This document shows positions 793 through 55,359 of a DNA stretch of 64,000 bases, one piece after another. Both the position numbers and the translations under genes were made by a program. Where the stretch lies: positions 868,001-932,000 of the forward strand of contig NZ_CP098514.1 of NCBI RefSeq assembly GCF_023703775.1. The letters run 5' to 3'. The stretch comes from Haloplanus sp. GDY1. GTDB taxonomy: Archaea > Halobacteriota > Halobacteria > Halobacteriales > Haloferacaceae. The notes beneath the pieces were generated by a model. The model was not told the origin of the DNA. It searched no databases and saw nothing but the letters and a program-made list of their open reading frames with translations. How positions within the stretch are numbered: the first letter of the stretch is position 1; the number at the start of each line of letters is the position of its first letter.

Positions 793-3468
793 GTGAACCT
801 CCGCGGGACGATTCTGGACGTTGGCGAGGTGCGGACCGTCTCGACGCGGCACGGCGAGCGCGACCTGGTCGAGACGGTGATCCGTCCCGACGGCGACGGC
901 GGGCAGACGACGCTCCCCGGCGCCGTCGACGACCGGTCGGTGACGGTCACGCTGTGGGGGAAGTGGACACACACCGCCGACCACGCCGCCGAGGGGATGG
1001 ACCTCCTCGTCACCGACGTCGAGACGCGGGAGGACGGGAGCCACGCCACGACCGGCGACTCCTACGTCGTCGTCGAACCCGACTTCCTCGTCGACGTGAC
1101 CGACGTCCGGTCGTGGGTGCAGTGCCCGCGGATGTACTACCTGAACAAACTCTCGGGCGTGCCGCTCGCCTACCCGGTCGTCAAGGGGACCATCGTCCAC
1201 GAGGTGTTCGGCGACCTGTTGCGGGGGCGTGACCTCGATTCGGCCGTCGCGGACCACGTCGAGGCGGCGGGCCTCGAACTCGGTCTGCTGGGGCGGGAGG
1301 CCGACGAGGTGCGCGACGAGGTGCGGCGGAACGCGTCGGCCATCGAGGGGTGGCTGGCACAGGACACCCTCACCGACGAGGACGAGTGGCGCTCGGAGTA
1401 CACGCTCATCAGCCCCACCTTCGGCATCAAGGGGCGGGCCGACGCGCTCCGCCGCGGCATGCCCGTCGAACTCAAGACGGGCAAGAACACGAAGCGCGAC
1501 CCGCGATTCCACGACAAGATCCAGGCGGCGACGTACGCCCTCCTGCTGGGCGAGTCGGGCGACCCGCCGGACACCGGGACGCTCCTCTACACGAAGAACG
1601 CGGCCCTCGACCGGTCGGAGGCGAGCGGCGACCTCTCGCCGGCCAAGGAGTTCTCGGTCGGGCGCGGACTGCTGGAGTTCGTCGTCCGCACGCGCAACGA
1701 GATCGCGGCCGCCGAGGCCGAGCGCCGCGTGCCGACTGGCTACGAGGCCGACGCGAAGTGCGAGTGGTGTTTCGAGCAGGACACCTGCATGGTCGTCTCC
1801 GGCCGCCTCGATCAGGAGTCGAAGGCCGGCCAGGTCGGGACCGCCATCCCCGAGGCGGAGCGCGCGTACTTCGAGGAGTTCTACCGCGCCATCGAGGACG
1901 AACGCCGGGCGGTCCACGACGAGTACCGGAAACTGTGGGAGCAGAGCGCGGCGGAACGCGCCGACGCCGACCGGGCGCTGATCGACCTCGACCCGCTCGG
2001 CCGCCGGCGACTGTCGGGCGGCGACTGGGAACTCCGGGCGCGGGTGCCGGACGGCGCCGTCTCGAAGCTCCGAGAGGGCGACGTGGCGCTCGCCAGTTCG
2101 GGCGACCCGATCCACGGCGACGCGGAACTCGGCCGCATCCGCTCGCTCGGCGACGAGGCGGTCGTCACGGTGGACGAACCGCTGGACCTGCGCCGTCTCG
2201 ACGTCTACCCCTCGGAACTCTCCGTCTCCCGCCAACTGACGGCGCTCCACGACGCCCTGCTGAAGGGCGACCCCGACCGCAAGGACGTGCTCTTCGGGCG
2301 CCGCGACCCCCGATTCGACGACGTGACCGAGACGTTCGTCGACAACAACGACGCCCAGAACGCCGCGATCCGGCGGTCCCTGGGCGCCGAGGACTTCGCG
2401 CTCGTCCACGGCCCGCCGGGGACGGGCAAGACCTACACCATCGCCCACCTGATCCGGGCGCTGGTCGACCGGGGGGAGCGCGTCCTCCTCTCGGCGTTCA
2501 CGAACCGCGCGGTCGACAACGCCCTCGACGCCCTCCGGGAACAGGGGTTCGAGGACGTGGCCCGCATCGGGACGACCACGGGCGTCCGCGATGACATGCT
2601 CGACGTGCGCCTCGAACGCCGGGGCGAGCCGAACGACCGGGCGGCCGCGCTCCGGTCGGCGTCCGTCGTCGCCGCCACCACCGCCACCTGTGGCTCCCGA
2701 ACCCTCCGCGAGGAGGAGTTCGACGTGGCCGTCGTCGACGAGGCGTCCCAGTTGACGGAGCCGGGAACGTTGCTGGCGCTGAACCTCGCCGACCGGTTCG
2801 TCCTCGTGGGCGACCACCAGCAACTCCCGCCGGTGGTCCAGTCCGGCGACGAGCGACTCGCCACCTCGCTGTTCGAGCGCCTCCACGACGAACACCCCGA
2901 GGCGGCGGTCATGCTCGACCGCCAGTACCGCATGAGCCAGCGCATCCAGGCTTTCGCCTCCCGGGAGTTCTACGACGGCGCGCTCCGTCCCGCCACGCCC
3001 GAGGTGGCGGGCGGGACGCTCGCGGACCTGCCGGGCGTCGACGGCGACCGACTTCCCCAGGAACTCCGGCAGGGCGTCCGCTTTCTCGATCCCGGCGGCC
3101 GGCGCGAGGGCAACGCCAACCCCGTCGAGGCCGACCGGGTGGCCGCGGTCGTCGAGGAGTACCTCGACGCCGGCGTCGATCCCGAGGACGTCGTGGTGAT
3201 CGCCCCCTTCCGGGCGCAGGTGGCGGAGATCGACCGCCGGGTCGACGTGGCCGTCGACACCGTCGACCGATTCCAGGGATCGAGCGCCGAGGTGGTGGTG
3301 GTCTCCTTCGTCGCCACCGGGGATCTGGACGGTCCCATCTTCGAGGACACCCGACGGGTGAACGTCGCGCTCACGCGGGCGAAGAAGGCGCTCGTCCTCG
3401 TGGGGGACGCGGCGGCGCTCGAATCCGAGCCGTTCTACGCCCGGATGCTGGACTGGGCGCGGCGCTAG
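793..3468 (+). CDS. Dna2-like nuclease-helicase (OB / Cas4-type nuclease / SF1 helicase)
   Basis: An 891-residue protein with a GTG start. The N-terminal ~95 residues look like an OB-type beta domain. Next is a RecB/Cas4-type nuclease with H136, D217 and the ExK pair E226/K228. Four cysteines (C111, C323, C326, C332) are arranged as in the Fe-S nucleases Dna2, Cas4 and AddB. The C-terminal half is an SF1B helicase: Walker A GPPGTGKT at 540-547, DEAS at 649-652, GDHQQLPP, RFQGSSAE, and the motif VI segment VNVALTRAKK. By family knowledge such proteins process 5' flaps or resect DNA ends in replication and repair. It converges with an Lhr-type helicase and shares a CTAG with it. It is not a CRISPR Cas4, since no array or cas genes are present. 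Confidence 0.88.
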   Translation: MNLRGTILDVGEVRTVSTRHGERDLVETVIRPDGDGGQTTLPGAVDDRSVTVTLWGKWTHTADHAAEGMDLLVTDVETREDGSHATTGDSYVVVEPDFLVDVTDVRSWVQCPRMYYLNKLSGVPLAYPVVKGTIVHEVFGDLLRGRDLDSAVADHVEAAGLELGLLGREADEVRDEVRRNASAIEGWLAQDTLTDEDEWRSEYTLISPTFGIKGRADALRRGMPVELKTGKNTKRDPRFHDKIQAATYALLLGESGDPPDTGTLLYTKNAALDRSEASGDLSPAKEFSVGRGLLEFVVRTRNEIAAAEAERRVPTGYEADAKCEWCFEQDTCMVVSGRLDQESKAGQVGTAIPEAERAYFEEFYRAIEDERRAVHDEYRKLWEQSAAERADADRALIDLDPLGRRRLSGGDWELRARVPDGAVSKLREGDVALASSGDPIHGDAELGRIRSLGDEAVVTVDEPLDLRRLDVYPSELSVSRQLTALHDALLKGDPDRKDVLFGRRDPRFDDVTETFVDNNDAQNAAIRRSLGAEDFALVHGPPGTGKTYTIAHLIRALVDRGERVLLSAFTNRAVDNALDALREQGFEDVARIGTTTGVRDDMLDVRLERRGEPNDRAAALRSASVVAATTATCGSRTLREEEFDVAVVDEASQLTEPGTLLALNLADRFVLVGDHQQLPPVVQSGDERLATSLFERLHDEHPEAAVMLDRQYRMSQRIQAFASREFYDGALRPATPEVAGGTLADLPGVDGDRLPQELRQGVRFLDPGGRREGNANPVEADRVAAVVEEYLDAGVDPEDVVVIAPFRAQVAEIDRRVDVAVDTVDRFQGSSAEVVVVSFVATGDLDGPIFEDTRRVNVALTRAKKALVLVGDAAALESEPFYARMLDWARR

Positions 3469-6191
3469 TCGTCACCGTCACCCTCGATCTCCGCCGTCAC
3501 GCGCTCGTGGAACTCCCGGAGGACGGCGTCCTCGTCGTCCGCGAGGACGGTGTCGGTGGCCGCGAGCGTCGCGAGGCCGAACGCCCGGGGCGAGGGCGTC
3601 TCGACCGTTCGCTCGACCACCTCGATCCCCCCGTCGCGGATCCGCCGGAGGACCGACTCGATGCCCGCGACGTGGAGTTTGTCCTCCAGCAGTTCGCGGT
3701 CGGTCTCCTCGATCACCGCGAAGTCGTCGAGGTCGTCGGCCAGCGACAGCAGCGTCTCGCTCTCGACCTGCTGGCGCGCCGCCGACTTCTCCGTGCCCTT
3801 GTACCGCTTCAGGATCATGAGCGACCGCGTGGCGTCGATGCGGAAGTACCGCTTGCGGAGGTCGGTCCCGCGGAGGGCCGACCGGAGGTCCGCCCGGACC
3901 GCGTCGGGGTCGAGGCCCCGGAGGAGCCCGGAGACGTCGAGCCGGCGGTTCAGCGGCATCGAGAGGACGAACCCGTTGTCGGCGACGGCGACGGTGACGC
4001 TCGCGGTGGTCTGGTTTGCACACCTCGCGGCCAGCAGGCGCGAGAGGCCGTCGTTGACCCGCCGGCCATAGACGGTGTGGACGTAGTAGCGCCGGCGGTA
4101 CTCCTCCCGGTCGCGCTCCTCCTCGATCGCGATCCGGTCGGGCGTCGAGACGCCCGCCGGCCCGGCGAAGGCGACCTGTCGATCGTAGAGGCGGGTGAGG
4201 GCGCGCACCGCCCGTTCGGAGAGGACGTCGCCGCGGAGCCAGTCCCGGAGCGCGGGCGGCCCGCCGGCGTCCAGGCGGTCGAGGACGTCGCGCTGGAAGG
4301 CGAGGATTTCGCGCGCGAGGTCGAACGCGAGCGGCAGGCGCTCGGAGTACCACGAGGGCACCGTCGGCCGGGCGTTCGTCCGGTCGACGTACACCTTCGA
4401 CCCGCGGCGGTAGCGGAACTCGAAGCGCTCGCCGCCGATGACGAACACGTCGCCGGGGTCGAGGGTGTCGAGGTAGTCCTCGTCGAGGTGGCCGACCCAC
4501 TCGTCGCTCCCCCGCACGATCACCTCACAGGAGAAGGAGTCGGGGATGGTGCCGACGTTCGTCAGGTAGATCATCCGGGCGAGGCGCCCCCGCTTGCCGA
4601 TCAGGCGCTCGCCGACGTCGAACTCCGGGTGGTGGTGGTCGCCGTCGGGCGGGTCGTTGGCGTCCCGCCAGATCTTCGCGTACACGTCCCGCTCCGCCAG
4701 CCCCTCGTAGTCCGCGGTGAGGTAGCGAAACAGCGTCTCGAAGTCGTCGTCGCCGAAGTTCCGGTAGGGGTAGGCCTGCCGGAGGATCCCCCGCACCTCG
4801 CGTTCGGGGCGGACGCGGTTGATCGCCATCCCGTAGACGTGCTGTGCCGCCACGTCGTAGGCGTTCTCGGGGACGAACACGCGGTCGACGAACCCGGACT
4901 CGGCCTTGCGGGCCATCACGGCACACTCGACCAGGTCGTCGCGGTCCAGCGCGACCACCCGCCCCTCGACGACCTGTCCGACCTGGTGGCCGGCGCGGCC
5001 CACCCGCTGGAGGAGAGCCGCCACCGACTTCGGCGACCCCACCTGCACCACCAGGTCGACGTGGGGCATGTCGACCCCGAGTTCGAGGCTGGTCGAAGTG
5101 GTCACCACGTCGAGGTCGCCGGCCTTCAGCGCCGACTCGACCGCCTGCCGCCGGTCGGCCGAGAGGCTGCCGTGGTGACAACCGGAGTCCGACTCGTCGT
5201 ACCCGTGGCGGTCGCGCAGCGCCTGCAACACCCGCTCGGCGCCCGACCGGGTGTTCGTGAACACCAGCGTGTTGGTGTGGGCGTCGATCAGGTCGTCGAG
5301 CCGGTCGTAAAAGCGGTCGCGGACGACCGCCCCCGGCGTGGCCACGAGGTCGTCGACCGGACAGTCGACCTGCAGGTCGAACTCGCGGGCGAAGCGGGCG
5401 TCGACCACCTCGCAGTCGCGGGGCGGACCGCCCGGCGACTCCCGGCCGACGAGGAACTCGGCCATCGTCCCGACGGGGTCGACCGTCGCCGAGCAGCCGA
5501 TCCGGGTCGGCGAGCCGTCCGCCAGTTCCGTCAGTCGCTCCAGCGACACCGAGAGGTGGGTGCCGCGCTTGGTCGCCGCGAGCGCGTGAATCTCGTCGAC
5601 GACGACGTACTCCACGTGGCGGAGTTTCTCGCGGAACTTCGGCGAGTTGAGCAGGATGGCGAGCGTCTCCGGGGTCGTGTTGAGGACGTGTGGCGTCTCG
5701 GCGAGCATCGCCCGCCGCTCGGCGTCGTCCGTGTCGCCGTGGCGGGTGGCGTGTCGCACCGACGTCGACTCGCCGCGTGCCGCCAGTCGCTCCCGAATCC
5801 CGTCGAGGGGCTCCGCCAGGTTCCGGTGGACGTCGTTCGCGAGCGCCTTCAGCGGCGAGACGTAGAGACAGTACACCGCGTTCTCCAGTCCGCCCGCCCG
5901 CTCCCGGCGGAACAGTTCGTTGATGATGGCGGTGAAGGCGGCGAGGGTCTTGCCGCTCCCGGTCGGCGCGCAGACGAGCGCGTGCTCCCCCTCGGCGACG
6001 AGGGGGATGGCCTCGCGCTGTGGCGGCGTGAAGAAGCCGCCGTTCTCGGGGACGTACTCGCCGAACCGGTCGATCCACCAGTCGCGGACGGCGGGGTCGA
6101 GCAGTTCGAGGACGTCGGCGTCGGCCGCGGCCGACGCGTCGACGTCGCAGTCGGCAAGCGCGTCGACGACTCCCTCCTCGGGCCGGTCCAT
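3465..6191 (-). CDS. Lhr-like DEAD/DEAH ATP-dependent helicase
   Basis: A 908-residue SF2 helicase. The frame is open to 6218, but the ATG at 6191 gives a normal N-terminus (MDRPEEGVVDAL); the only upstream start is TTG. Motifs: TPPQREAIP (Q motif), Walker A APTGSGKT (residues 75-82), TTPETLAIL, DEIH (199-202), GCSAT, and motif VI QRVGRAGHQ. A long C-terminal part of ~450 residues matches the winged-helix and beta-sheet 'Lhr core' arrangement. Lhr-type enzymes are single-strand-DNA-dependent 3'-5' helicases in DNA repair. The stop codon shares CTAG (3465-3468) with the convergent nuclease-helicase gene, leaving no room for a separate terminator. Confidence 0.88.
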   Translation of the reverse strand: MDRPEEGVVDALADCDVDASAAADADVLELLDPAVRDWWIDRFGEYVPENGGFFTPPQREAIPLVAEGEHALVCAPTGSGKTLAAFTAIINELFRRERAGGLENAVYCLYVSPLKALANDVHRNLAEPLDGIRERLAARGESTSVRHATRHGDTDDAERRAMLAETPHVLNTTPETLAILLNSPKFREKLRHVEYVVVDEIHALAATKRGTHLSVSLERLTELADGSPTRIGCSATVDPVGTMAEFLVGRESPGGPPRDCEVVDARFAREFDLQVDCPVDDLVATPGAVVRDRFYDRLDDLIDAHTNTLVFTNTRSGAERVLQALRDRHGYDESDSGCHHGSLSADRRQAVESALKAGDLDVVTTSTSLELGVDMPHVDLVVQVGSPKSVAALLQRVGRAGHQVGQVVEGRVVALDRDDLVECAVMARKAESGFVDRVFVPENAYDVAAQHVYGMAINRVRPEREVRGILRQAYPYRNFGDDDFETLFRYLTADYEGLAERDVYAKIWRDANDPPDGDHHHPEFDVGERLIGKRGRLARMIYLTNVGTIPDSFSCEVIVRGSDEWVGHLDEDYLDTLDPGDVFVIGGERFEFRYRRGSKVYVDRTNARPTVPSWYSERLPLAFDLAREILAFQRDVLDRLDAGGPPALRDWLRGDVLSERAVRALTRLYDRQVAFAGPAGVSTPDRIAIEEERDREEYRRRYYVHTVYGRRVNDGLSRLLAARCANQTTASVTVAVADNGFVLSMPLNRRLDVSGLLRGLDPDAVRADLRSALRGTDLRKRYFRIDATRSLMILKRYKGTEKSAARQQVESETLLSLADDLDDFAVIEETDRELLEDKLHVAGIESVLRRIRDGGIEVVERTVETPSPRAFGLATLAATDTVLADDEDAVLREFHERVTAEIEGDGDD

Positions 6192-52305: not shown

Positions 52306-53739
52306 TCAGTCGGCCGTGCAGGGGTCGGTCACGCAGGCGACGCCGGTGATCCCGAAGCGGGTTCCCCCGGCCGCGCTCTCGGCCACCGCGACGTCCCAGT
52401 CGTGGGCGTCGGCGATCTCGGCCACGATGGAGAGCCCGAATCCGGTGCCGTCACTCGACGTGGAGTAGCCGCTCTCGAACACCGTCTCGCGCTGGCCCTC
52501 GGGGATCCCCGGCCCGTCGTCCGCGACGTAGAACCCGTCCGCACGGTCGCCGACGGTGATCGTCACGTCCTCGCCGCCGTGGGTGATGGCGTTCCGGAGG
52601 AGGTTCTCGAGGAGGTGCTGGAGCTGGCTCCGATCCGCGCGGATCGAGCGGGTCGTCTCGACGTCGAGCGACGCCCCGCTCGTCGAGACGTTTCGCCAGC
52701 ACTCCCGAACCGTCGCCGCCAGATCCACCGTCTCGACGTCGCTCACGCGGTCGCCGGCGCGGGCGAGCGTCAGCAGGTCGTCGATCAGGTTCCCCATCCG
52801 CTCCAGGGCGTGTGCCGCCTCGTCGAGGTGGTCGCACTCGGCGTCCCGGCGCGCTACCGACAGGTTGCCGGTCGCCACGTTCAGCGGATTCCGGAGGTCG
52901 TGGGAGACGACGCTCGTGAACTGATCGAGGCGCTCGTTCCGGCGCCGGAGTTCCCGCGCGTGTTCGCGCCGCTCGGTGATGTCGCGGGCCGAGGCGATGA
53001 GCGAGACGACGGTCCCCGACTCGTCGGTGACCGGTCGGATCGTCCCGCTCACGCTCCGCCGGTCGCCGTCCACCCCGACGTGGTCGGCCTCGTACTCGAC
53101 GTACTCGCCCCCGGCGGCGCGCTCGACCCACTCGCGGACGTCCGCTCGGTTCTCGTCGGACCACCACGGCGTCTCCCAGAAGGGCTCGCCGACCAGGTCC
53201 TCGTGGTCGGCGTCGACGAGTTCCATGGCGGTGTGGTTGGCGTCGTGGAGTCGGCCGTCGGGAGAGAGCACGCCGACGAGCATCTTCGGGTCCTCGAAGA
53301 CGGCGTCGAGGCGGCGCTCGCTCCGCCGTAACGTCCGCTCCGCGCGGTACCCCTCGACCGCGTCGTGGATCCGCTTGGCCAGGAGCGCGTCGTCGCCCTG
53401 AACCCCGCGGCGGAGGTAGTCGGTGACGCCCGCGGAGATGGCCTCGCTGGCGACCGCCTCGCTCCCGGCGGCCGTATAGAGGATGAAGGGGAGGTCGGGA
53501 CGACGGTCGCGGACCGCGCGCAGGAACTCGAGGCCGGTCCGGTCCGGCAGGTCGTGACCCGAAACCACGCAGTCGACGCCGCCCGCGTCCAAGCGGCCGA
53601 GCGCCGTCCCGGCGTCGGGTACCGTCTCCACGTCGAATCGGTCGCCCTCGTGTTCGAGGTGCGGTGCGGTCGGGTCGCCGATGTCCACGTCGTCGTCGAC
53701 GTGCAGGACCCGTATGCGCTCTCGGCCCACGTCGACCAT
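52306..53739 (-). CDS. Histidine kinase with degenerate receiver (REC-PAS-HisKA-HATPase)
   Basis: A 477-residue soluble kinase. The N-terminal receiver keeps the acidic pocket (DDD at 15-17) but has Gly61 where the phosphoacceptor Asp belongs (VVSGHDLPD) and Arg in place of the conserved Lys (YLRRG). Then a PAS domain (~140-255), HisKA with H280 (SVVSHDLRNPLN), and an intact HATPase (NAITHGG, DDGPGIP, GTGFGLSIV). It should autophosphorylate, while the receiver probably works as a binding or dimer module. No cognate intact receiver is next to it. The C-terminal CVTDPCTAD is an odd Cys tail. Confidence 0.88.
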   Translation of the reverse strand: MVDVGRERIRVLHVDDDVDIGDPTAPHLEHEGDRFDVETVPDAGTALGRLDAGGVDCVVSGHDLPDRTGLEFLRAVRDRRPDLPFILYTAAGSEAVASEAISAGVTDYLRRGVQGDDALLAKRIHDAVEGYRAERTLRRSERRLDAVFEDPKMLVGVLSPDGRLHDANHTAMELVDADHEDLVGEPFWETPWWSDENRADVREWVERAAGGEYVEYEADHVGVDGDRRSVSGTIRPVTDESGTVVSLIASARDITERREHARELRRRNERLDQFTSVVSHDLRNPLNVATGNLSVARRDAECDHLDEAAHALERMGNLIDDLLTLARAGDRVSDVETVDLAATVRECWRNVSTSGASLDVETTRSIRADRSQLQHLLENLLRNAITHGGEDVTITVGDRADGFYVADDGPGIPEGQRETVFESGYSTSSDGTGFGLSIVAEIADAHDWDVAVAESAAGGTRFGITGVACVTDPCTAD

Positions 53740-53828
53740 ACTGCCTCGTCGCGCCGCCGAAAGTAAGGCCTTTGCCGCCGAATATCACTGATGAAAATCC
53801 CCGTCTGACGGACGGCGGTGGGATCGTC

Positions 53829-54479
53829 TCAGTCGTCGGCGTTCGCGGGCACGGGATCGAAGGGCACCCACTCCGACGCCCCGCCGAGGAAGCTACGGGA
53901 CCGGAGTTCCGGTCCCTCGCGGACGTCGATCCGACCGTCGCAGAACTGCGCGATGGTCCGCAGTTCGCGCTCGTCGTGCATCGCCGGATCGACGAGGAAG
54001 ACGCCGAGGCCGTCCACCTTGCTCACCCGCCCCGCGAGCGTGTGGACGAACCGCGAGACGGTCTGTAGCTCCGTGAGCGAGAGGACCGTCGATATCGAGA
54101 ACAGTCCCGTCCGGACCCGCCGAACCCCCTCCCGATGGAACTCCCGGTAGAGCTTGGAGTAGCGCATCCCGATGCCCGTCAGGTCCTGCGCGCTGGAGAC
54201 GGTCATCACGCGGGCGGGGACGCCGCTGTCGTCGCTGTCCAGACAGTCGACGATGCCCATCCGGTCCGGGGTTGGCTCGATGCCGACCGTCTCGCAGTCG
54301 GCCGCGGTGTCGGCGGCCGTCGTGTTCGTCGTCAGGACGATCACCCCATCGTCGCCGGCGAGCATCCGGTAGGCGAGTTCCTTGGTGCCGCCGTGCGACG
54401 GCCCGGCGACGAGGACGGTCGTCCCGGGCCTGACGGGATCGATCGGCAGTCCCTCGAAGGTGTAGTCCGCGTCACTCAT
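53829..54479 (-). CDS. RecA/KaiC-fold protein with altered Walker A (DUF7504-like)
   Basis: A 216-residue protein, ATG at 54479. It opens with a RecA-like core, PGTTVLVAGPSHGGTKELAYRML, where the P-loop reads GPSHGGTK (residues 26-33) instead of GxxxxGK[ST]. A hydrophobic strand ending LGVFLVDPA sits at the Walker B position. Such proteins are common beside haloarchaeal kinases and bacterio-opsin-activator-like regulators. ATP binding is doubtful. Its start overlaps the stop of the REC-GAF gene by eight bases, so they are probably cotranslated. Confidence 0.75.
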   Translation of the reverse strand: MSDADYTFEGLPIDPVRPGTTVLVAGPSHGGTKELAYRMLAGDDGVIVLTTNTTAADTAADCETVGIEPTPDRMGIVDCLDSDDSGVPARVMTVSSAQDLTGIGMRYSKLYREFHREGVRRVRTGLFSISTVLSLTELQTVSRFVHTLAGRVSKVDGLGVFLVDPAMHDERELRTIAQFCDGRIDVREGPELRSRSFLGGASEWVPFDPVPANADD

Positions 54480-55359
54480 CGGCCTCACCCGCCGTGGCCT
54501 CGTGGAGGCGCCTGCGGAGGTCCAGTCTGTCCATCACGTCGTCGGCGAGCGCCGAGAGCAGGTCACGCTCCGCCGCCGTGAGCGTCCCCGGTTCGTCGTC
54601 GAACAGGCAGAAGACGCCGACCGCGTCGCCCGCGGCGGTCCGGATCGGCGCCCCGGCGTAGAACCGGATCGAGGCCTCGATCAACGCCTCGTTGCCCTCG
54701 AAGCGCGGGTCCGCCTGCGTGTCGGGGATCACCGTCACCCCGTCGTCGAGGATGGCGTAGGTACAGACCGTCCGTTCGCGGTCCAACCGATCCACGTCGA
54801 CCTCGTGACAGGCGACGAACCGCTCCTGGTGGGCGTCGAGGAAGCCGACCGTCGCCGCGTCGACGTCGAACAGCGCGGCCGCGATCCTCGTGAGGCGGTC
54901 GAGCGACGCGTCGGGAACGCCGGGCAGGTCGTCGACGTACTTCGTCACGGCGTCGAGGCGGGCGTCCTCGTCGTCGGGGAGGGGGTAGGCGGTCTGGCTC
55001 CGGTTGTCGACGCTGAACTCGAGGAGGTCGACCAACTCCTCGCGTGCGTCCGGCGCCCCCTTGTCGACGTACTCGACGACGGCCGTCCCGAGGTCGGCGG
55101 TGTCGAGTTCGTCGAACCCGGCGTCGGTGAAGAGGACGCAGGTCGCGTCGGGAACGGTCGTGCGCGCTCGCTCGACGAGTTCGAGTCCGGTTCCGTCGGG
55201 GAGGTCGTACTCGGTGACGACGCCGGCGACCGACTCGTCGAGCGCCTCGCGGGCCTCGGCCAGCGAGCCACTGAGCGTCGCGTCGATACCGGCCTCCCGG
55301 AGTGCGGCCCGCGTGGCACGTCCGTCCTCCGGGGCGGGATCGACACACAGGACCCTCAT
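54472..55359 (-). CDS. Receiver-GAF protein with Glu at the phosphorylation site
   Basis: A 295-residue protein. The N-terminal CheY-like domain (1-115) has VVTEYDLPDG, placing E50 at the phosphoacceptor position, and keeps K100. The acidic pair is weakened (CVDPAPED). A Glu there could mimic a permanently phosphorylated state. Residues ~130-285 are a GAF domain (RFVACHEVDVDRLDRERTVCTY; FYAGAPI). No output domain is present. It overlaps the RecA-like gene and lies next to the kinase gene on the same strand. Confidence 0.85.
   Translation of the reverse strand: MRVLCVDPAPEDGRATRAALREAGIDATLSGSLAEAREALDESVAGVVTEYDLPDGTGLELVERARTTVPDATCVLFTDAGFDELDTADLGTAVVEYVDKGAPDAREELVDLLEFSVDNRSQTAYPLPDDEDARLDAVTKYVDDLPGVPDASLDRLTRIAAALFDVDAATVGFLDAHQERFVACHEVDVDRLDRERTVCTYAILDDGVTVIPDTQADPRFEGNEALIEASIRFYAGAPIRTAAGDAVGVFCLFDDEPGTLTAAERDLLSALADDVMDRLDLRRRLHEATAGEADE

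Follow-up and report, generated by a model that had tools for sequence, protein, structure and literature searches.

The present analysis concerns three adjacent signalling genes at positions 52306 to 55359 of a 64,000-nucleotide (nt) stretch of the Haloplanus sp. GDY1 genome (assembly GCF_023703775.1, contig NZ_CP098514.1, positions 868,001 to 932,000), referred to below as the window. On the minus strand, which carries all the features of this locus, the order is a REC-GAF protein (55359-54472), a KaiC-like protein of the family DUF7504 (54479-53829) and a histidine kinase (53739-52306). The first two reading frames overlap by 8 nt, and the kinase starts downstream, 89 nt after the DUF7504 stop. 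The reading that we consider fairly probable is that REC-GAF and DUF7504 form a phosphorylation-independent haloarchaeal signalling pair, in which the GAF domain provides the input and the KaiC-like partner operates without ATP, and that the kinase is a later addition. It is based on the sequence states, the conservation of the pair, the predicted fold and the constraint on the genes; such a pair would form a physical complex, respond to a ligand, employ DUF7504 as a scaffold and act on a downstream target. The pair brings together disabled signalling proteins of two known types, namely aspartate-less receivers (ALRs) and inactivated KaiC-like proteins.

When 292 genomes of the class were searched with the window REC-GAF protein as query, 94 further loci were retrieved. 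Together with the window this makes 95 loci from 81 genomes, which represent 30 genera and 7 families; fourteen of the genomes carry two loci. With later loci included, a DUF7504 gene lies directly downstream, on the same strand, of 98 of 99 REC-GAF open reading frames (ORFs), or of 97 of 98 distinct ones, since L217 duplicates the L099 locus. The junction between the two genes is tight, an overlap of the 4-nt type being the commonest. A second, named sample, which partly overlaps the first, has the pair in all 19 haloarchaeal loci, with Glu (16) or Ala (3) at the receiver site and the Walker A lysine in none; Haloarcula and Halobacterium are among the genera with the pair. REC-GAF and DUF7504 are an ancient conserved pair that carries both the Asp-less and the Lys-less state. 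The sole REC-GAF gene without a downstream DUF7504 (L103) belongs to a genome, G228, in which a second locus (L209) retains a Lys-less DUF7504 alone, so that one gene of each kind is left. L209 still adjoins genes that resemble those flanking its relatives at the purine locus. A further small RecA/KaiC-like ORF, missed by the DUF7504 profile, lies near its unpaired DUF7504 (L209:1078-1713).

The REC-GAF protein (295 residues, 54472..55359) consists of a receiver domain (residues 1-118, 55006..55359) and a GAF domain (residues 150-276, 54532..54912; PF01590, E 7.2e-13). In Pfam the GAF domain passes the cut-off, and the receiver scores 22.5 bits against PF00072, under the curated 30.2. Despite this score the N-terminal part is a receiver domain: a profile built from 64 relatives finds response regulators of solved structure (E 5.8e-12), and the AlphaFold2 (AF2) model, with a mean predicted local distance difference test score (pLDDT) of 93.4, has strands alternating with helices over residues 2-119. 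An initial annotation of the locus had placed Glu50 at the phosphate site of this receiver and Gly61 at that of the kinase receiver, together with Arg for its Lys, had suggested that H280 of the kinase possibly signals elsewhere, and had described a broken P-loop in the RecA-like protein between them. The residues it named are confirmed: direct checks give Glu50, Gly61 with Arg111, and His280 as the HisKA histidine, and the P-loop reads GPSHGGTKE (residues 26-34), the Walker A lysine being gone. The phospho-acceptor Asp of a two-component phosphorelay is consequently missing from both receivers of the locus. REC-GAF (Glu50 codon, 55210..55212) retains D7, T78, Y97 and K100. In an alignment of 94 REC-GAF proteins, from which L153 was left out, the phospho-Asp place is Glu in 57, Ala in 27, Gly in 7, Asp in 2 and Ser in 1, so that Asp is absent from 92 and the protein qualifies as an ALR.

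Since Glu is the commonest state, the receiver might be imagined as constitutive, with Glu50 mimicking phospho-Asp, REC-GAF permanently on and the output modulated only through the GAF domain or the level of DUF7504. The switch residues are kept (T78 in 91/94, Y97 in 88/94), and according to passages in PMC12632262 and PMC4395418 a Glu at this site can partly activate receivers. The same pair architecture, however, includes Ala and Gly receivers (27 and 7 of the 94), and on the tree, where the place has about 15 changes of state, Glu and not-Glu interchange about ten times; PMC4395418, in the part concerned, also describes ChxR as staying active after replacement of its Glu. Nor do Glu50 and Lys100 covary: the raw counts suggest it (Glu with Lys in 40/57, Ala with Arg in 23/27), but the association is gone on the tree (median p 1). 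We regard a constitutive receiver as improbable. The phosphomimic proposed by the initial annotation stands insofar as Glu prevails, but a fixed one is weakened because so many Ala and Gly receivers share the architecture. Less probable still, and very unlikely in our view, is that phosphate or another modification is accepted at a different residue of REC-GAF, such as Asp52 or Asp55. The Asp55 place is Asp in 90/95 proteins, the Asp52 place in 58/95, and the acidic D7 is kept in 77/94; yet Asp55 is not at the site itself but in the loop that follows it, and the partner Lys100 is replaced by Arg in 45/94.

The GAF domain may be where the pair receives its signal. Its closest solved relative is the GAF domain of the diguanylate cyclase Dcsbis (32% identity, root-mean-square deviation (rmsd) 1.8). 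Three of its cysteines are near-invariant, Cys184 in 89/94, Cys199 in 92/94 and Cys251 in 91/94, and so is R194. Because of these cysteines an input by redox state or by a ligand is possible; across the window domain and its relatives they suggest a redox or metal input.

The middle protein (216 residues, 53829..54479) belongs to DUF7504 (PF24336, E 1.7e-29). Its single sequence has no match in the PDB; a profile was needed, and the family profile matches KaiC with E 1.2e-9. The AF2 model (pLDDT 93.8) resembles PH0284 (Z 19.9, 195 residues aligned, rmsd 2.6), SSO2452 (Z 19.5) and KaiC 7s65 (Z 19.1, 187 aligned, rmsd 2.6), and a Foldseek search with it also supports a likeness to archaeal RecA-family ATPases and KaiC. 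The window protein is thus predicted to have the KaiC/RecA fold expected of an inactivated KaiC-like protein. At the Walker A place (GPSHGGTK, residues 26-33, 54381..54404) the Gly-Lys-Ser/Thr signature is gone, Thr32 standing where relatives have Lys. Among 96 paired DUF7504s, 95 lack the lysine. Identical rows were first merged (169 to 163), and for the tree and for the Walker and Glu column counts L153, L179, L180, L183 and L236 were then dropped. The Glu pair that is catalytic in KaiC, located by hidden Markov model alignment, is likewise mostly replaced: the window protein has Asn52 and Thr53 instead, and Glu occurs at column 52 in 6/96 paired rows and at column 53 in 12/96. Unpaired DUF7504s of the class usually retain Gly-Lys (29/35 rows). 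Before the rows were removed, the lysine was found in 1/97 REC-GAF pairs, 27/27 of the HalX pairs described below and 29/39 unpaired proteins.

The three disabled genes could alternatively be viewed as decay, two degraded signalling genes beside a degrading kinase, with little or no function left. Besides the disabled sites themselves, two properties of the kinase fit this view: its receiver site is labile (Gly, Gly, Glu, Glu, Asp and Asp among six orthologues), and in genome G293 its ORF stops after HisKA, with no HATPase catalytic motif downstream in any frame. The states of REC-GAF and DUF7504, however, are maintained over 30 genera, and T78, R194, C184, C199 and C251 are near-invariant. 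Within the genus, the ratio of nonsynonymous to synonymous polymorphism (pN/pS; 15 pairs each) is 0.45 for the receiver of REC-GAF, 0.40 for its GAF domain and 0.18 for DUF7504. The lowest value is that of the protein with the broken P-loop, and this strong purifying selection indicates that DUF7504 is not a dying gene. Decay is therefore very unlikely as an account of the locus, and the state of the pair is not local decay, since the pair is conserved as an ancient one. The partners also diverge as units. Thirteen genomes have two usable pairs each, and in these the divergence of REC-GAF and DUF7504 is correlated with r 0.895, whereas swapping partners within genomes gives a mean r of 0.18 and reaches 0.895 in 0 of 2000 trials; L153, L081, L103 and L132 were excluded, the latter two having lacked a DUF7504 match at the initial screening. 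Gene order, co-divergence and the reciprocal loss in G228 point indirectly to a possible contact between the two proteins.

The phosphorylation-independent pair may be pictured as follows. The receiver would be locked out of phosphotransfer and would serve instead as a protein-binding and allosteric domain. A ligand or a redox cue would be taken up by the GAF domain, the long C-terminal helix of REC-GAF could dimerise, and the receiver would relay the resulting change to DUF7504. The latter would be a binding partner or scaffold rather than an ATPase, because the Walker A lysine and the hydrolysis glutamates of KaiC are lost. The adjacent kinase would be an intact histidine kinase that entered the locus in one genus and whose own receiver is drifting.

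A second kind of pair, in which a REC-HalX response regulator is encoded directly upstream of a Lys-bearing DUF7504, is found in the same group of organisms. The HalX domain was assigned by Pfam for L201 and L177, and in all 27 distinct pairs of this kind the receiver Asp, the receiver Lys and the Walker Lys are present. The count of Walker Lys is partly built in, because the query that retrieved most of these loci (L220 onward) was itself a DUF7504 with the lysine and a HalX partner; six that were found otherwise, by searches with the window DUF7504 or PF24336 (L177, L200, L201, L203, L204 and L205), all have both Asp and Lys. Both kinds of pair co-occur in sixteen genomes. The window genome is one of them: in L177 (G000:C1:1165656-1172162), far from the window locus, REC-HalX lies at 2217-2930 and DUF7504 at 2923-3588. 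It is conceivable, though we hold it only tentatively and think it rather unlikely, that two modes of signalling coexist in one cell: a phosphate-driven one of REC-HalX with Lys-bearing DUF7504, and a phosphate-free one of REC-GAF with Lys-less DUF7504, driven by a GAF ligand. In the second mode a receiver and a KaiC-like protein would have been chemically disabled jointly and would persist as a switch of a purely allosteric kind, the haloarchaeal equivalent of the cyanobacterial control of KaiC by pseudo-receivers, and the Lys-less DUF7504 might enter rings formed by its Lys-bearing relatives and tune them. KaiA and CikA are pseudo-receiver proteins that act on the KaiC-fold protein or on the clock complex. 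REC-GAF differs in lacking a KaiA domain, for no KaiA family, and hence no KaiA KaiC-binding domain, appears in the Pfam scan up to E 0.01; unlike KaiC, DUF7504 is a single domain without the catalytic residues.

Several observations weigh against a phosphorylation-independent pair. Asp is retained at the receiver site in two REC-GAF loci, L072 and L085, and the Walker A lysine in one REC-GAF partner, L101. Lys-less DUF7504s also exist without an adjacent REC-GAF (L209-L212, L198 and L216). The contrast between live and dead classes is weakened because the Ser/Thr that follows the Walker lysine is absent from all Lys-bearing rows as well, so that these proteins, judging from their sequences, may not bind ATP either. 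Without this Ser/Thr, and with the KaiC Glu pair mostly replaced, hydrolysis is unlikely in the whole DUF7504 family, and nucleotide binding alone may separate the Lys-bearing from the Lys-less class. On the DUF7504 tree of 158 rows the Lys state changes three times, and an independent-pairs test of the joint loss of Asp and Lys finds no informative pairs (median p 1) and gives no support. A repeated, independent co-loss of the two residues is not upheld by these results; the Lys split is essentially one ancient event kept since, and its co-occurrence with the Asp-less receiver could be coincidence. Co-divergence, moreover, is no proof of contact, because linked genes co-diverge anyway. Finally, no third gene in the neighbourhood is common to more than 5 of the 30 genera, so that no target is indicated.

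The kinase (477 residues, 52306..53739) has the Pfam architecture REC, PAS, HisKA and HATPase. Its receiver has Gly61 (codon 53557..53559) at the phospho-Asp place and Arg111 at the Lys place, with D15, D16 and T89 present; its HisKA histidine is His280 (codon 52900..52902). The N box at 379 and the G boxes at 407 and 431, motifs of histidine kinases, are present as well; with these catalytic motifs unimpaired, the kinase may send its signal to a different receiver. Six of the 12 genomes of the genus have a close orthologue, which adjoins the pair in four loci, those of the window, L061, L062 and L170 (the truncated kinase of G293, L170:6606-7871). The other two are away from it, one (L172) in G296, a genome that has pairs, and one (L171) in G173, a genome without any. 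The residues at the phospho-Asp and Lys places are Gly and Arg in the window and L171, Asp and Lys in L061, Glu and Lys in L062 and L170, and Asp and Arg in L172. The kinase is therefore an occasional, late neighbour, with orthologues in one genus and a labile receiver state.

These distributions bear on the proposal of the initial annotation that the three disabled genes form one allosteric unit. A three-gene allosteric complex of which the kinase is a real member could be argued from its position on the same strand, 89 nt away, from the three other loci in which it directly follows the pair, and from the unrelated, receiver-less PAS kinases that follow the pair in L073, L141 and L150. Kinases of either sort, however, are downstream in just 7 of 98 pair loci, the orthologues in G296 and G173 are separate from any pair, and the residues at the receiver site vary; we judge such a complex quite unlikely, and a three-gene unit is rejected as the general case. 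What survives of the proposal is the Asp-less REC-GAF with the Lys-less DUF7504, as an ancient conserved pair that may act allosterically, and not the kinase. The annotation had also held that orthologues with a normal Asp would make the altered sites a decay specific to one lineage. By this test Gly61, where the orthologues have two Asp, two Glu and two Gly, is a change at the level of the lineage, and Glu50 is not. Downstream of the pair in L063 a 116-residue ORF (L063:3738-4088) matches the kinase weakly and is possibly a remnant.

The REC-GAF receiver can be compared with ALRs, which are a subset of pseudo-receivers according to passages in PMC4395418 and PMC12632262. The former, in the part consulted, estimates that they make up about 4% of receivers overall and as much as 10% of those in archaea, that Halobacteria and Methanomicrobia have the largest numbers, and that Glu is the commonest replacement; the latter gives an archaeal share of Asp-less receivers of 10-15%, and in the relevant passage of this 2025 review its authors state that they are aware of no published functional investigation of archaeal pseudo-receivers. 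Like the ALRs described there, REC-GAF has a receiver fold without phospho-Asp, Glu is commonest, and the switch Thr and Tyr are kept. Unlike the examples given, which are bacterial and in several cases have DNA-binding outputs, it is fused to a GAF domain, has no output domain and has a KaiC-like partner gene. PMC5847659, in the part consulted, lists inactivated KaiC domains (iKaiC) and their fusions with receivers, as well as REC-GAF regulators. DUF7504 is like these iKaiC domains in its predicted KaiC/RecA fold, in which the ATP site would not be functional, and in its link to archaeal signalling. Table 2 of that paper places the receiver fusions in methanogens, Thermoplasmata and thaumarchaea, whereas the haloarchaeal DUF7504 is a separate, overlapping gene; unlike iKaiC, it also has a Lys-bearing sister class. 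The archaeal REC-GAF response regulators of PMC5847659, as they are presented in that part, have the same two domains and no obvious output domain, and where the same part calls the partners of the REC-PAS and REC-PAS-GAF classes unknown, DUF7504 is a partner candidate here. No description of the haloarchaeal pair was found in the literature searched; the KaiC hub paper of Makarova (2017, mBio), which lay outside the search, might mention it. The pair gives an archaeal aspartate-less receiver a specific conserved partner and makes signalling by such receivers testable in haloarchaea, where the Asp- and Lys-bearing REC-HalX pair of the same genomes is a built-in natural control and genomes with two pairs suit tests of specificity.

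Some further features of the loci may be noted. In about 19 loci of four to five genera (L080, L085, L095, L102, L144 and about 14 others) the pair stands among genes that resemble those of purine biosynthesis, identified by eye as formyltetrahydrofolate deformylase, PurQ and PurC; this context looks like a shared place of insertion. L210 and L211 (genomes G280 and G080) are second, Lys-less DUF7504s without a neighbouring REC-GAF, in genomes that also carry a full pair. A search for repeats within the window locus gave short, GC-rich, chance-like matches only. Of 27 receiver matches in the genome, 25 were inspected; 21 have the Asp and four do not, two of the four being those of this locus. 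The other two, L346 (G000:C1:1979500-1980200) and L347 (G000:C1:1727800-1728400), have Glu and Ala, respectively, at the site.

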